64,000 nucleotides of DNA, from the NCBI GenBank assembly GCA_950295325.1, contig OX485806.1:44387169-44451168 (forward strand), read 5' to 3'. Shown piece after piece: positions 4,939 to 58,885 of this stretch (position 1 is its first letter; each line of letters opens with the position of its first letter). A model generated the notes under the pieces. That model had not been told where the DNA came from. It was given only the letters and a program-made list of their open reading frames with translations, and ran no database searches. The stretch is from Polytrichum commune. Taxonomy: Eukaryota; Streptophyta; Polytrichopsida; Polytrichales; Polytrichaceae. Position numbers and translations under genes: made by a program.

Positions 4939-5690
4939 CTAAAAACTCGCCAATGCCAATAAGTTCTCGGATTCAGAAAGTTCTATGGCTCCCACGAGGG
5001 AGACGGTGGTGGTTGATGGATGCAAACGGTCTCCTGTGTCCATTCCACCTACTTGTGTGCCTGTAGTAATGAATACATCTGTTGTGCACTGTTCATGTCT
5101 TCTTGTACGTGCCTCCATTGCCAACACAACTCTCCATCCTGGTCTACCCACTTCCTATGACCAAAAAACTTGTGTTGCTTGACTGGGAAAAATAAACGGA
5201 TCCGACATCTTCGGTACTTTGTGGCAAAAATTCACGACCATGAATCCAACATCATCTCTTACATAAGTAGGATTCCCCCAATTGTCACATTGTTTCATCC
5301 ACTTGCACCTAAAAACTATAAAAGGTGTACGGAGTGGGCCATAGTTCAATTTCAGTTATCCTTTAGTACTCCCACAAAGTTCAATGTTGTTGATTCCGTC
5401 CCCGTGGAGGACATGTGAAACACGAAGGCCACACCGCTGTCATAAGTTTGAAGCGTGGCGGATTGCTGGTCCTCTACCCAAAAGTGGTTTTCATAGGCCT
5501 TCATCCTCGTGTATCACGTGGCTAGTTGTGATGGTCTGCTACACAACAACACTCGGTCCATGTCATCCGCATTGTTGGGGTCCACAGGGTGCCTATGCAC
5601 TGCATCTTTGATCCATTTCTCAAAAATGGGGATGTCGGGGTTTGCTCCCTTTTCTTCTTTCCATTGCCTGCACATGCACAACTGCCAGAT
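4939..5690 (-). pseudogene. Broken CACTA TNP2-type remnant with DUF4216-like region
   Basis: Read on the minus strand, the frame opens just after a TGA at 5693-5691. A first part includes NPDIPIFEKWIKDAVHRHPV, then a TGA at 5516-5514, where the family often has Trp. It continues through QTYDSGVAFVFHMSS to NFVGVLKDN. At about 5360-5350 the frame shifts by one base and continues as LNYGPLRTPFIVFRCKW, then DDVGFMVVNF, then DPFIFPSQATQVFWS. An in-frame TAG follows at 5157-5155, then EVGRPGWRVVLAMEART, and the frame stops at 4941-4939. The order SGV, YGVL-like, F-C-W, GF-VN, DPFI-SQA-QVF and W-VVL is that of the C-terminal TNP2-associated region (DUF4216) of plant CACTA elements. The transposase catalytic part is not recognisable. 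Two nonsense codons and a frameshift make this a dead copy. The family call rests on motif recall, not a database search. Confidence 0.65.
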
Positions 5691-6049
5691 TCAATGCATG
5701 TATTACAAACTTCAGTAGACAACCTTCCACTGCTTCCATTTAATAATCAGTGAATGATGGTGAATGGATGTACTACTGGGCAATCGACAATTGCATTATT
5801 TGTGTATGTGTGTGTATTTAATTGTTGGGATCCATAATGAATGCTGCTAAGTCTGTTATTGTGTACTACTTGTATCAAACTCACAGTCGTTGTCTGGTTT
5901 AGGAGAGCAAACAATGACTCATCTGTGCCAAGGTTCTATGAGTGATAAATTTGATAGTGCATATTTGTGGGCAAGATCTCTCAGCGCTGATGACATCAAG
6001 TACTTTGTCACGATATGCGTCGTCGACGGCCGCACCTTATCTGTTAGGT
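5691..6049. other. Unassigned DNA between the CACTA remnant and the LTR region
   Basis: No supported gene. It contains a small GT-rich tract at about 5801-5818. An open stretch at 5890-6108 (plus strand) starts only with TTG and resembles no family known to me. The 5' part of the CACTA coding region would be expected here but is not recognisable, so the transposon is either truncated or diverged beyond reading. Confidence 0.4.
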
Positions 6050-6077
6050 TTCATCCATCTAGATTTGGATGGATGAA
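6050..6077. repeat. Inverted repeat, 10-bp stem
   Basis: TTCATCCATC at 6050-6059 and GATGGATGAA at 6068-6077 are perfectly complementary around an 8-nt loop. The cruciform potential is clear, but no function can be inferred. Confidence 0.6.
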
Positions 6078-6119
6078 TGTAGATGTAGAGAGGAATGCTC
6101 CTAAGTGAGGAGCCTCCTC

Positions 6120-6147
6120 CTTGGCTTGGCATTCTTGCCAAGTCAAG
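6120..6147. repeat. Hairpin, 11-bp stem with one G-T pair
   Basis: CTTGGCTTGGC at 6120-6130 pairs with GCCAAGTCAAG at 6137-6147 around the 6-nt loop ATTCTT, with one wobble position. A smaller inverted pair, GCTCC (6097-6101) and GGAGC (6109-6113), lies just upstream. The inner part, 6128-6142, recurs in inverted orientation at 6339-6353. Confidence 0.6.
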
Positions 6148-6353
6148 TCTTGTGAGTGAGTGTGTGAAGAGAGTTTGTGTGAGGTGAAGATTGCATGTTG
6201 TTGCAATAACTTGAGTTATTCTCCCCCTACTTACACTCTTGGATTATCCCGTGGTGGAATAAGAGATAGCTTGACTCATTGTGTACATTTGAAGAGAGAT
6301 GTAGAGCTATTGCAAGGGTTTGACTCTCTTCCTTCTCACTTGGCAAGAATGCC
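6128..6353. repeat. 15-bp inverted repeats 196 bp apart, possible small foldback element
   Basis: GGCATTCTTGCCAAG at 6128-6142 is repeated exactly, in inverse orientation, as CTTGGCAAGAATGCC at 6339-6353. The spacing would suit a small MITE-like element of about 226 bp. No clear target-site duplication is visible outside the arms, and the left arm is itself part of a hairpin, so the element call is tentative. Confidence 0.4.
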
Positions 6354-6408
6354 TCATTTTTTATGTTTTCTTCTTCATTATTGAGATGTAATGCGTATTG
6401 GAAGATAG

Positions 6409-6584
6409 TGTTAGGTTGCATCGGTGACATTGTCCCATATGGGTTGTCTACGCTGGTCCTAACCCATACATATAAATAAAGGCATAAGGGGAGGAGCTAA
6501 TCACTCTCTCCATTGTATGCAATCATTGTGTGTTGTGTTCTACCTTTCTACGCTGATGTCTTTGCTTTCTCCTCTCATTTCTCA
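6409..6584 (+). mobile_element. Probable 5' LTR of a copia-like element, start uncertain
   Basis: The right edge is set by a TCTCA followed, after three bases (ATA), by a primer binding site at 6588. The left edge is inferred from TGTTAGGTTGCATC at 6409, a start typical of copia LTRs. This gives a 176-bp LTR beginning TG and ending CA. Inside are a palindrome CCCATATGGG (6434-6443), an inverted pair TATGGGTT/AACCCATA (6438-6445 and 6461-6468), a TATA box TATAAAT at 6471, and an AATAAA at 6475-6480. An alternative start is TGAG at 6153 or 6157, which would match the final CTCA as a 4-bp inverted repeat and give an LTR of about 430 bp. The 3' LTR is not in the window, so the length cannot be settled. 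Confidence 0.45.
6471..6480 (+). promoter_or_regulatory. TATA box within the probable LTR
   Basis: TATAAATAAA lies 62 bases into the proposed LTR, in the position expected for the U3 promoter. Initiation would be expected roughly 30 nt downstream, near 6500. The overlapping AATAAA could act as the poly(A) signal in the 3' LTR copy. There is no direct evidence of transcription. Confidence 0.45.
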
Positions 6585-6587
6585 ATA

Positions 6588-6601
6588 GGTTATGGGCCCA
6601 C
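6588..6601 (+). other. Primer binding site for a half initiator tRNA-Met
   Basis: GGTTATGGGCCCAC is the exact complement of the anticodon stem-loop region of plant initiator tRNA-Met, GTGGGCCCATAACC. Drosophila copia and yeast Ty5 prime reverse transcription from a cleaved half of this tRNA, using this internal region and not the 3' end. Most plant copia elements instead carry TGGTATCAGAGC, complementary to the tRNA 3' end. The site sits 3 nt after the LTR end, as expected. Confidence 0.7.
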
Positions 6602-6827
6602 TTTGCTTTAGAGCTTAGAGATCAACTTAGGAAGAGGTAGGAGAGAGCCGGATCTGATCGGAGGTGATTTGGAGGTGTTTCAAGCTTTTGGTGGAGTTTT
6701 GGAGTTTTGGAGCACTTTTGGAGCGCCTTGGAGCATTCTTGGACACTTGGACCAGCGTGGAGGACACCTTAGGTTGAGGTTCATTGTATCTTGAGTGTGT
6801 ACGTGAGATCGATTCGCATTTTGAGGG
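6602..6827 (+). mobile_element. Leader of the copia-like element, with satellite-like words
   Basis: This noncoding stretch lies between the primer binding site and the first satellite monomer. It has a run of imperfect short repeats built on TTTTGGAG (about 6692-6735). It also carries GAGGTGATTT at 6661 and GGAGGTGTTT at 6671, which resemble the GAGGTGATTA that opens the first monomer at 6831 and the GAGGTGTTTT of later monomers. No gag start or coding frame is seen. Confidence 0.45.
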
Positions 6828-6960
6828 TTTGAGGTGATTAGAATTCCAAAAGGCTTAGTTGTGGCTTTTTGATGGTTATGTAGTTATTAAGCTTAGTTTT
6901 GGAGTGGAAAGGTGCTGACTTGAGAGATCCATCCATTCTATGCTTACTTTGAGGTGTTTT
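6828..6960 (+). repeat. Left edge of the array, diverged first monomer
   Basis: The first unit opens GAGGTGATTAGAATTCC where later units have GAGGTGTTTTGAGTTCC, so its start differs at several bases. From AAAAGGCTTAG onward it is a normal monomer of the minor (CTATGC) class. The edge is sharp: before 6828 no alignable monomer remains. A diverged edge unit next to homogeneous inner units is the usual pattern for unequal exchange. Confidence 0.8.
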
Positions 6961-7200
6961 GAGTTCCAAAAGGCTTAGTTGTGGCTTTTTGATGGTTATG
7001 TAGTTATTTGGCTTAGTTTTGGAGTGGAAAGGTGCTGACTTGAGAGATCCATCCATTCAAAACTAACTTTGAGGTGTTTTGAGTTCCAAAAGGCTTAGTT
7101 TTGGCTTTTTGATGGTTATGTAGTTATTTGGCTTAGTTTTGGAGTGGAAAGGTGCTGACTTGAGAGATCCATCCCTTCAAAACTAACTTTGAGGTGTTTT

Positions 7201-7920
7201 GAGTTCCAAAAGGCTTAGTTTTGGCTTTTTGATGGTTATGTAGTTATTTGGCTTAGTTTTGGAGTGGAAAGGTGCTGACTTGAGAGATCCATCCATTCTA
7301 TGCTTACTTTGAGGTGTTTTGAGTTCCAAAAGGCTTAGTTGTGGCTTTTTGATGGTTATGTAGTTATTTGGCTTAGTTTTGGAGTGGAAAGGTGCTGACT
7401 TGAGAGATCCATCCATTCAAAACTAACTTTGAGGTGTTTTGAGTTCCAAAAGGCTTAGTTTTGGCTTTTTGATGGTTATGTAGTTATTAAGCTTAGTTTT
7501 GGAGTGGGAAGGTGCTGACTTGAGAGATCCATCCATTCAAAACTAACTTTGAGGTGTTTTGAGTTCCAAAAGGCTTAGTTTTGGCTTTTTGATGGTTATG
7601 TAGTTATTTGGCTTAGTTTTGGAGTGGAAAGGTGCTGACTTGAGAGATCCATCCATTCTATGCTTACTTTGAGGTGTTTTGAGTTCCAAAAGGCTTAGTT
7701 GTGGCTTTTTGATGGTTATGTAGTTATTTGGCTTAGTTTTGGAGTGGAAAGGTGCTGACTTGAGAGATCCATCCATTCAAAACTAACTTTGAGGTGTTTT
7801 GAGTTCCAAAAGGCTTAGTTGTGGCTTTTTGATGGTTATGTAGTTATTAAGCTTAGTTTCGGAGTGGAAAGGTGCTGACTTGAGAGATCCATCCATTCAA
7901 AACTAACTTTGAGGTGTTTT
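7201..7920 (+). repeat. 3-mer (360-bp) tandem duplication
   Basis: Monomers at 7201 and 7321 (T-type minor class, then G-type common class) recur as the pair at 7561 and 7681. The third monomers (7441 and 7801) differ at position 21 and near position 60. The spacing is exactly 360 bp. Confidence 0.6.
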
Positions 7921-8040
7921 GAGTTCCAAAAGGCTTAGTTTTGGCTTTTTGATGGTTATGTAGTTATTTGGCTTAGTTTTGGAGTGGAAAGGTGCTGACT
8001 TGAGAGATCCATCCCTTCAAAACTAACTTTGAGGTGTTTT

Positions 8041-8161
8041 GAGTTCCAAAAAGGCTTAGTTTTGGCTTTTTGATGGTTATGTAGTTATTTGGCTTAGTTT
8101 TGGAGTGGAAAGGTGCTGACTTGAGAGATCCATCCATTCAAAACTAACTTTGAGGTGTTTT
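8041..8161 (+). repeat. 121-bp monomer with extra A
   Basis: The A run after GAGTTCC has five A instead of four (8048-8052). This is the first phase break in the array and it is not propagated to any other monomer in the window, so it is private to this copy or a sequencing slip in a homopolymer. Confidence 0.9.
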
Positions 8162-9121
8162 GAGTTCCAAAAGGCTTAGTTGTGGCTTTTTGATGGTTAT
8201 GTAGTTATTAAGCTTAGTTTTGGAGTGGGAAGGTGCTGACTTGAGAGATCCATCCATTCAAAACTAACTTTGAGGTGTTTTGAGTTCCAAAAGGCTTAGT
8301 TTTGGCTTTTTGATGGTTATGTAGTTATTTGGCTTAGTTTTGGAGTGGAAAGGTGCTGACTTGAGAGATCCATCCATTCAAAACTAACTTTGAGGTGTTT
8401 TGAGTTCCAAAAGGCTTAGTTGTGGCTTTTTGATGGTTATGTAGTTATTTGGCTTAGTTTTGGAGTGGAAAGGTGCTGACTTGAGAGATCCATCCATTCT
8501 ATGCTTACTTTGAGGTGTTTTGAGTTCCAAAAGGCTTAGTTGTGGCTTTTTGATGGTTATGTAGTTATTTGGCTTAGTTTTGGAGTGGAAAGGTGCTGAC
8601 TTGAGAGATCCATCCATTCAAAACTAACTTTGAGGTGTTTTGAGTTCCAAAAGGCTTAGTTGTGGCTTTTTGATGGTTATGTAGTTATTAAGCTTAGTTT
8701 CGGAGTGGAAAGGTGCTGACTTGAGAGATCCATCCATTCAAAACTAACTTTGAGGTGTTTTGAGTTCCAAAAGGCTTAGTTTTGGCTTTTTGATGGTTAT
8801 GTAATTATTTGGCTTAGTTTTGGAGTGGAAAGGTGCTGACTTGAGAGATCCATCCAATCAAAACTAACTTTGAGGTGTTTTGAGTTCCAAAAGGCTTAGT
8901 TGTGGCTTTTTGATGGTTATGTAGTTATTAAGCTTAGTTTCGGAGTGGAAAGGTGCTGACTTGAGAGATCCATCCATTCAAAACTAACTTTGAGGTGTTT
9001 TGAGTTCCAAAAGGCTTAGTTTTGGCTTTTTGATGGTTATGTAGTTATTTGGCTTAGTTTTGGAGTGGAAAGGTGCTGACTTGAGAGATCCATCCAATCA
9101 AAACTAACTTTGAGGTGTTTT

Positions 9122-57963: not shown

Positions 57964-58803
57964 GAGTTCCAAAAGGCTTAGTTTTGGTTTTTTGATGGTT
58001 ATGTAGTTATTAAGCTTCGTTTTGGAGTGGGAAGGTGCTGACTTGAGAGATCCATCCATTCAAAACTAACTTTGAGGTGTTTTGAGTTCCAAAAGGCTTA
58101 GTTGTGGCTTTTTGATGGTTATGTAGTTATTTGGCTTAGTTTTGGAGTGGAAAGGTGCTGACTTGAGAGATCCATCCATTCAAAACTAACTTTGAGGTGT
58201 TTTGAGTTCCAAAAGGCTTAGTTGTGGCTTTTTGATGGTTATGTAGTTATTTGGCTTAGTTTTGGAGTGGAAAGGTGCTGACTTGAGAGATCCATCCATT
58301 CAAAACTAACTTTGAGGTGTTTTGAGTTCCAAAAGGCTTAGTTGTGGCTTTTTGATGGTTATGTAGTTATTTGGCTTAGTTTTGGAGTGGAAAGGTGCTG
58401 ACTTGAGAGATCCATCCATTCTATGCTTACTTTGAGGTGTTTTGAGTTCCAAAAGGCTTAGTTGTGGCTTTTTGATGGTTATGTAGTTATTTGGCTTAGT
58501 TTTGGAGTGGAAAGGTGCTGACTTGAGAGATCCATCCATTCAAAATTAACTTTGAGGTGTTTTGAGTTCCAAAAGGCTTAGTTGTGGCTTTTTGATGGTT
58601 ATGTAGTTATTAAGCATAGTTTCGGAGTGGGAAGGTGCTGACTTGAGAGATCCATCCATTCAAAACTAACTTTGAGGTGTTTTGAGTTCCAAAAGGCTTA
58701 GTTTTGGTTTTTTGATGGTTATGTAGTTATTAAGCTTCGTTTTGGAGTGGGAAGGTGCTGACTTGAGAGATCCATCCATTCAAAACTAACTTTGAGGTGT
58801 TTT

Positions 58804-58885
58804 GAGTTCCAAAAGGCTTAGTTTTGGAGTGGAAAGGTGCTGACTTGAGAGATCCATCCATTCAAAACTAACTTTGAGGTGTTTT
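58804..58885 (+). repeat. Truncated 82-bp monomer
   Basis: This unit lacks 38 bp. The monomer contains GGCTTAG(G/T)TTTGG-like words twice, at positions 12-24 and 50-62. Here one copy of GGCTTAGTTTTGG (58815-58827) and the intervening bases are gone exactly. This is the product expected from slippage or exchange between the two internal repeats of a T-type monomer. It shifts the array phase by 38 bp for the rest of the window. Confidence 0.95.

Follow-up and report, generated by a model that had tools for sequence, protein, structure and literature searches.

The window analyzed here, 64,000 nucleotides of the Polytrichum commune genome (C4:44387169-44451168), raises a question of origin: did the 120-bp tandem array that fills most of it arise inside the retroelement at its edge, or was the element placed in an older array? 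A first-pass annotation had proposed that the satellite begins within the leader of a copia-like retroelement. We put at roughly 0.9 the probability that this element, E1, inserted with a handful of units and that the interior of its array then grew to 555 units, probably by unequal exchange or conversion. The assembly is 408-Mb in size, with seven large contigs of 42-78 Mb; C8, which carries psaA and psaB, is presumably plastid. The psaA gene matches best the protein chains 8htu and 6l35, which are from the moss Physcomitrium patens, and a set of seven large contigs would suit Polytrichaceae.

All E1 features in the window lie on the forward strand. The 5′ copy of a 5-bp target-site duplication, ATGCG (6391-6395), precedes a 192-bp copia-type 5′ LTR (6396-6587; TATTG...CAATA), whose limits follow from paired LTRs, and from the duplicated target sites next to them, in related copies. 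The annotation had recognized a probable LTR end here; the LTR start moves from 6409 to 6396, as TATTGG, which precedes the TG taken as the start, is conserved among relatives. Adjoining the LTR is the primer binding site GGTTATGGGCCCAC (6588-6601), a 14-mer that proved to be the exact reverse complement of the anticodon arm of the same genome's tRNA-Met(CAT) gene. A longer tRNA pattern had 12 exact and three one-mismatch matches in the genome, and ARAGORN confirmed one of these 15 to be a tRNA-Met. Drosophila copia is known to be primed by a tRNA fragment of internal origin. The leader, counted from 6588, spans 240 bp (6588-6827) and shows 95–99% identity to the first 13 relatives read. A tandem-repeat scan and a reading of positions 5401-8400 agree that the array starts straight after it, at 6828, and the first unit (6828-6947) is indeed diverged, with 9/120 mismatches to the unit consensus. 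We considered the leader sequence as the seed of the unit and set this idea aside, the similarity being weak (best local score of 22.6, where the highest of 100 shuffles was 21.1).

The array occupies the rest of the window (6828-64000) and ends at C4:44460645, equivalent to window position 73477 and 9,477 bp beyond the window, for a length of 66,650 bp. Counting conserved 14-mer anchors across the three pieces read gave 476 + 69 + 10 = 555 units. Within the window, 471 of the 475 spacings between the 476 anchors are exactly 120 bp, which excludes chance. Each 120-bp unit bears two GGCTTAGTT-like copies, 38 bp apart. Anchor spacing reveals no gap across the array, the sole exception being one 82-bp unit (58754-58835), in which 38 bp were lost between the two GGCTTAGTT copies; the window has no other short unit. 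The 471 window units of 120 bp comprise 127 distinct sequences with a mean pairwise difference of 3.7%, and no fixed-period higher-order repeat was seen in the array. The last unit is truncated at 97 bp and runs into TGTGTGAGAACC; this truncation and the diverged first unit are features of the family. By its length, homogeneity and head-to-tail arrangement, the E1 array has the organization of a satellite.

The next base after C4:44460645 begins the leader-to-gag sequence as found in ordinary copies, and the sequence after the array is 98.3% identical to that of the relative L001 over 1,665 bp. Consistent with the element having been called copia-like, a 673-codon stop-to-stop frame 3′ of the array contains copia gag, CCHC, pre-integrase and integrase domains (the domain scan took in the gag-to-integrase part, 5′ of an insertion, and the final codons of the frame extend into the insert). 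E1 is broken near C4:44462672 by other repeats; element sequence is found again in L034, followed by a 3′ LTR (C4:44484282-44484474) that differs from its own 5′ LTR at 5/192 aligned bases and by one gap. Directly after this LTR, outside the window, is the second copy of ATGCG (C4:44484475-44484479). A genome-wide pattern search for the LTR-end and ATGCG junction returned four matches, the sole exact one at the expected site, and alignment agrees. The outer LTR ends are 90,911 bp apart, most of this being array. In the relative at C2:44845866, the domain order is Retrotran_gag_2, zf-CCHC, rve and then RVT_2, with integrase before reverse transcriptase. With paired LTRs and a target-site duplication, a primer binding site and the copia domain order, E1 is a Ty1/copia LTR retrotransposon. 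Since gag-pol resumes after the array and ATGCG stands at both outer ends, the whole array lies inside one inserted copia element. The repeats inserted in the E1 pol (L009:3190-10000, L024) recur in long blocks whose similarity reaches 99.6%.

The alternative named in the first-pass annotation, that a retroelement inserted into, or was cut by, an older 120-bp satellite, would account for the abrupt edge of the array in the window and for nothing else that we observed. Element sequence flanks the array inside a single pair of target-site duplications that enclose it. Flanking stretches read contain no 120-bp units, with 0 in the 6,395 bp upstream and 926 bp downstream of E1 and 0 in 6.3 + 4.9 kb beside a second giant element, E2. 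The 13 relatives first read, moreover, bear short arrays at the same place. At this locus we regard an older satellite as excluded.

These relatives were chosen among the best matches to the LTR plus leader, with a query free of units – a check that the annotation had itself suggested. We found that 12 of the 13 (L001-L003, L005-L008, L015, L017, L019, L021, L023) carry 4–8 units after the leader, the partial last unit counted, with the gag leader coming next; the array of L023 is divided by a 7-kb insert. In 10 of the 12, these being the copies in which a 3′ LTR was sought, both LTRs are present and 5-bp target-site duplications flank them. The thirteenth, L004 (C4:35491139-35493139), is a rearranged copy that has a single unit, another LTR 460 bp downstream of the first and an inverted LTR fragment, and its flanks are gag-pol-like sequence of another copy. 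Neither an intact relative lacking units nor satellite without an LTR neighbor appeared in the sequence read. With short arrays in its relatives and its own array enclosed by element and target-site duplication, E1 supports the proposal that the satellite begins within a retroelement leader.

We extended these counts to the whole genome by searching for the two array junctions. There are 114 start junctions (100 listed) and 129 end junctions (100 listed); the start-junction pattern extends seven bases into the first unit and is blind to unit-free copies. Among the junctions listed, 78 of the 100 starts were paired with an end by script, and 66 of these 78 pairs are 337–1,300 bp apart, corresponding to 2.8–10.8 units. 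Ordinary relatives carry about 3–11 units between leader and gag. The other 12 pairs comprise five real arrays (E1-E5), four that proved on reading to be interrupted or compound, and three of >100 kb (at C1:33579356, C6:9492569 and C7:10565231) that we take to be mispairings, since the unit count leaves no room for such arrays and the C1 interval is without an exact unit match among the matches listed. Four of the 22 unpaired starts among those 100 were read, and these are E6, L004, L006 and L021. Arrays of moderate length were found in four copies: E3 (24.8 units), E4 (35.8), E5 (36.9) and E6 (15.8).

A 34-base unit pattern has 973 + 1,446 = 2,419 matches genome-wide, with 554 in E1 and about 990 in E2, such that the two giants hold ~64% of the total. 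The remaining ~875 matches are about what a few units per copy would give for 114 start and 129 end junctions. An array outside an element was not found in the sequence read, 100 of the 2,419 unit matches being listed; independence from the parent element, a second hallmark of satellites, is not seen, although a small free array may exist elsewhere.

Target-site duplications of 5-bp abut TATTG...CAATA in 15 of 16 LTR pairs, including those of E1 and E2 (14 by script, E6 by eye), and the two LTRs differ at 0–5 of about 192 sites in 15 of the 16. The remaining element, E4 (C5:6.868-6.877 Mb; L031/L035), has no target-site duplication and LTRs that differ at 12/192, and is probably a mosaic or recombinant of two elements.

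The second giant, E2 (C4:44592902-44723730), lies 108 kb from E1 in the opposite orientation, on the reverse strand, and has both LTRs, which differ at 2/192, and the target site CAATC. Its array junctions are 126,608 bp apart. Ten stretches were read, and the eight wholly inside this span (56,000 bases) contain 438 units, which scales to about 990. The array interior includes two anchor-free gaps of ~1 kb (L048), as well as a stretch (L028) that belongs to a different repeat family; this family is the one that interrupts the E1 pol, and it also occurs beside E4 (L031). E2 belongs to a diverged subfamily, with an LTR 13/192 from that of E1 and gag-pol 87–90% identical to the common form. In an LTR-leader tree, E2 and E5 are sisters (100/100 support), as are E4 and E6, and all four are expanded. 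We rejected E1 and E2 as a single duplicated array: the target sites are different (ATGCG vs CAATC), the LTRs are that far apart, and the unit sets are separate on average. E1 units are on average 4.7% from those of 11 short elements and 6.4% from sampled E2 units, in a comparison that used exactly-120-bp units only (209/239 for E2). Between the flanks of E1 and E2, in the parts read, no similarity was detected at E <= 1e-5.

Tandem arrays are prone to assembly error, and the case made here rests on an assembly, so a short array falsely expanded into a giant one has to be weighed. False expansion would be expected to repeat a few template units, but the window contains 127 different units among 471, at a mean difference of 3.7%, and the independent E2 has other repeat DNA within its array (L028). 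We consider an artefact of this kind highly improbable.

To gain insight into how the array grew, we looked at the distribution of unit variants along it. A signature of the first unit occurs once in E1, at the array start, and a signature of the last unit occurs once, at the array end. The last-unit signature is present in 11/11 short elements and the first-unit signature in 8/11; with one mismatch allowed, the latter was missed in 3/11 short elements and in E3, E4 and E6, so it is a mark of many relatives rather than all. That the end signatures are single in E1 indicates internal growth, in which only the interior multiplied. Neighboring E1 units are identical in 5.4% of cases, compared with 6.3% in shuffles, and are no closer than random pairs, which argues against single-unit slippage. 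Runs of identical units, in contrast, extend to up to 9 units in E1, whereas 100 shuffles yielded none longer than 5. Allowing <=1 mismatch per unit, a looser count without a shuffle control, runs reach up to 20 units at offsets of 10–53 units. In E2, the longest run (4–9 units) exceeded the maximum of 200 shuffles in 5/5 10-kb pieces, the lesser runs of L039 and L047 excepted. The recurrence of blocks of several units suggests unequal exchange or conversion, and block copying at offsets of ~1–6 kb by such a process would fit the runs of both E1 and E2.

We propose the following sequence of events. E1 would have inserted at C4:44.39 Mb, duplicating ATGCG and carrying a few 120-bp units between its leader and gag. 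Once the element had inserted, sister chromatids would repeatedly have paired out of register, and exchange or gene conversion would have copied blocks of several units, until the interior brought the array to 555 units (66.65 kb), the first and last units and the remaining element staying in place. These steps are read from one assembly, in which exact array length could be off. A relationship of growth with LTR age was considered and not seen: LTR differences are 5/192 in E1, 2/192 in E2, E3 and E5, and 0–5/192 in short elements.

We place the growth after insertion because a 67-kb RNA template is implausible. The array could instead have grown before insertion, by template switching in the retrotransposition cycle, and inserted large. 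Unit number does vary between near-identical young elements (6.8 units at C2:44845866 and 7.8 at C4:49314638, with identical 5′ LTRs and own LTR pairs at 0/192), and the expanded E2/E5 and E4/E6 group by subfamily. This alternative, however, would require transcripts of 67 kb and about 120 kb to be made and reverse-transcribed, and the ~875 remaining units are spread over >100 junction-bearing copies, which makes a sibling with hundreds of units unlikely. We judge that the array is very unlikely to have originated in this way. For the moderate arrays (16–37 units) the situation may be different: most of them group by subfamily, and they may be partly inherited through retrotransposition. As the sister pairs E2/E5 and E4/E6 are all expanded, part of the growth may precede insertion. 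For E1, growth of the interior after insertion remains our preferred reading.

We next considered the chromosomal setting. Among the 100 listed start junctions, 62 fall within seven intervals, one per large contig and 0.63 Mb in total, drawn by eye on the same data (C1:33.40-33.60, C2:47.26-47.34, C3:33.15-33.20, C4:35.45-35.52, C5:46.55-46.61, C6:25.45-25.50 and C7:13.57-13.69 Mb). Copies in these clusters are often nested, and the seven clusters are likely centromeres, as judged by analogy. The 62 cluster junctions include 40 that pair at 3.8–10.8 units, four interrupted, one mispaired, 16 unpaired and one E3, which lies at the edge of the C1 cluster and is the only larger array found in the clusters. 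Further giants suggested by four apparent 45–56-unit spacings in the C2 and C3 clusters were rejected, as these hold no more than 9 consecutive anchors and are broken up by kilobases of other DNA.

E1, E2, E4, E5 and E6 are all outside the cluster intervals. Both giants are ~9 Mb from the C4 interval and <330 kb from each other; among the 38 dispersed listed junctions only 2/703 pairs are that close (within 330 kb), in a test framed after seeing the data. Because two unrelated insertions, from two subfamilies, expanded to hundreds of units at C4:44.39-44.72 Mb and cluster copies are short, satellite birth might be a property of the neighborhood, an idea that we offer tentatively and consider rather unlikely. 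If true, it would imply a permissive, perhaps non-recombining or late-replicating, arm domain – the reverse of the pattern in Lathyrus described below.

The birth of satellites from LTR-element repeats is already known, from Ogre 3′UTRs (PMC7004042) and maize CRM elements (PMC3648361). In Lathyrus sativus, tandem repeats in the 3′UTR of Ogre (Ty3/gypsy, Tat lineage) gave rise to satellites (Vondrak et al., PMC7004042, which cites Macas et al. 2009 for these repeats as a satellite source). The likeness to E1 is that short arrays are dispersed in LTR elements and a few copies are expanded to great length. The E1 family, in contrast, is Ty1/copia, with units between leader and gag rather than between pol and the 3′ LTR, and is seen at single loci with both LTRs and target-site duplications, whereas the Lathyrus evidence consists of pooled read statistics that, according to its authors, leave single loci unresolved. 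Long Lathyrus arrays are mostly in primary constrictions, whereas the two longest arrays here are in a chromosome arm; Vondrak et al. single out non-centromeric regions with suppressed recombination as especially interesting (PMC7004042).

Among mosses, RLC5 copia elements form one cluster per chromosome, at putative centromeres (PMC7466625, PMC9946827). The E1 family resembles RLC5 in being copia and in having one dense cluster per large contig, a likeness by description rather than by sequence; the portions of these reports available to us do not mention tandem units in RLC5 leaders, which the E1 family has. In the Physcomitrium patens satellitome, as excerpted, another repeat, Pp21_215, co-locates with RLC5-rich regions at two loci. 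Our literature search, which covered its sources in part, returned no report of an E1-type array, nor any of tandem units in the leaders of moss RLC5 elements. Retand, of the gypsy lineage (PMC11963269), has tandem repeats inside its LTR elements (STR1) that are expanded in some copies (PMC12477314). Non-autonomous Retand elements are LTRs with only expanded repeats between them (PMC12477314), whereas E1 retains gag-pol.

In maize, a centromere-associated retrotransposon gave rise, through its LTR-UTR side, to the satellites CRM1TR and CRM4TR (Sharma et al. 2013, PMC3648361). CRM1TR has two neighboring loci on one chromosome (PMC3648361), like the giants described here, and homogenization is block-wise in both systems. 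The maize units, however, include LTR sequence, for which a deleted LTR-UTR~LTR precursor was proposed (PMC3648361), whereas the E1 unit is already present in intact elements and E1 itself is complete save for the nested insertion.

Clearly new here are the origin in a copia 5′ leader, the preserved element, the graded series, the two nearby events and the position away from the putative centromere. The E1 array looks like satellite DNA caught being born. One assembly contains a series of 3–11, 16–37 (four copies), 555 and about 990 units, which opens direct tests: dating by LTRs, tracing of copied units, and asking why two neighboring arm insertions expanded unlike most cluster copies. Both giants are still between their own LTRs and target sites, whereas the maize CRM arrays are no longer in an intact parent.
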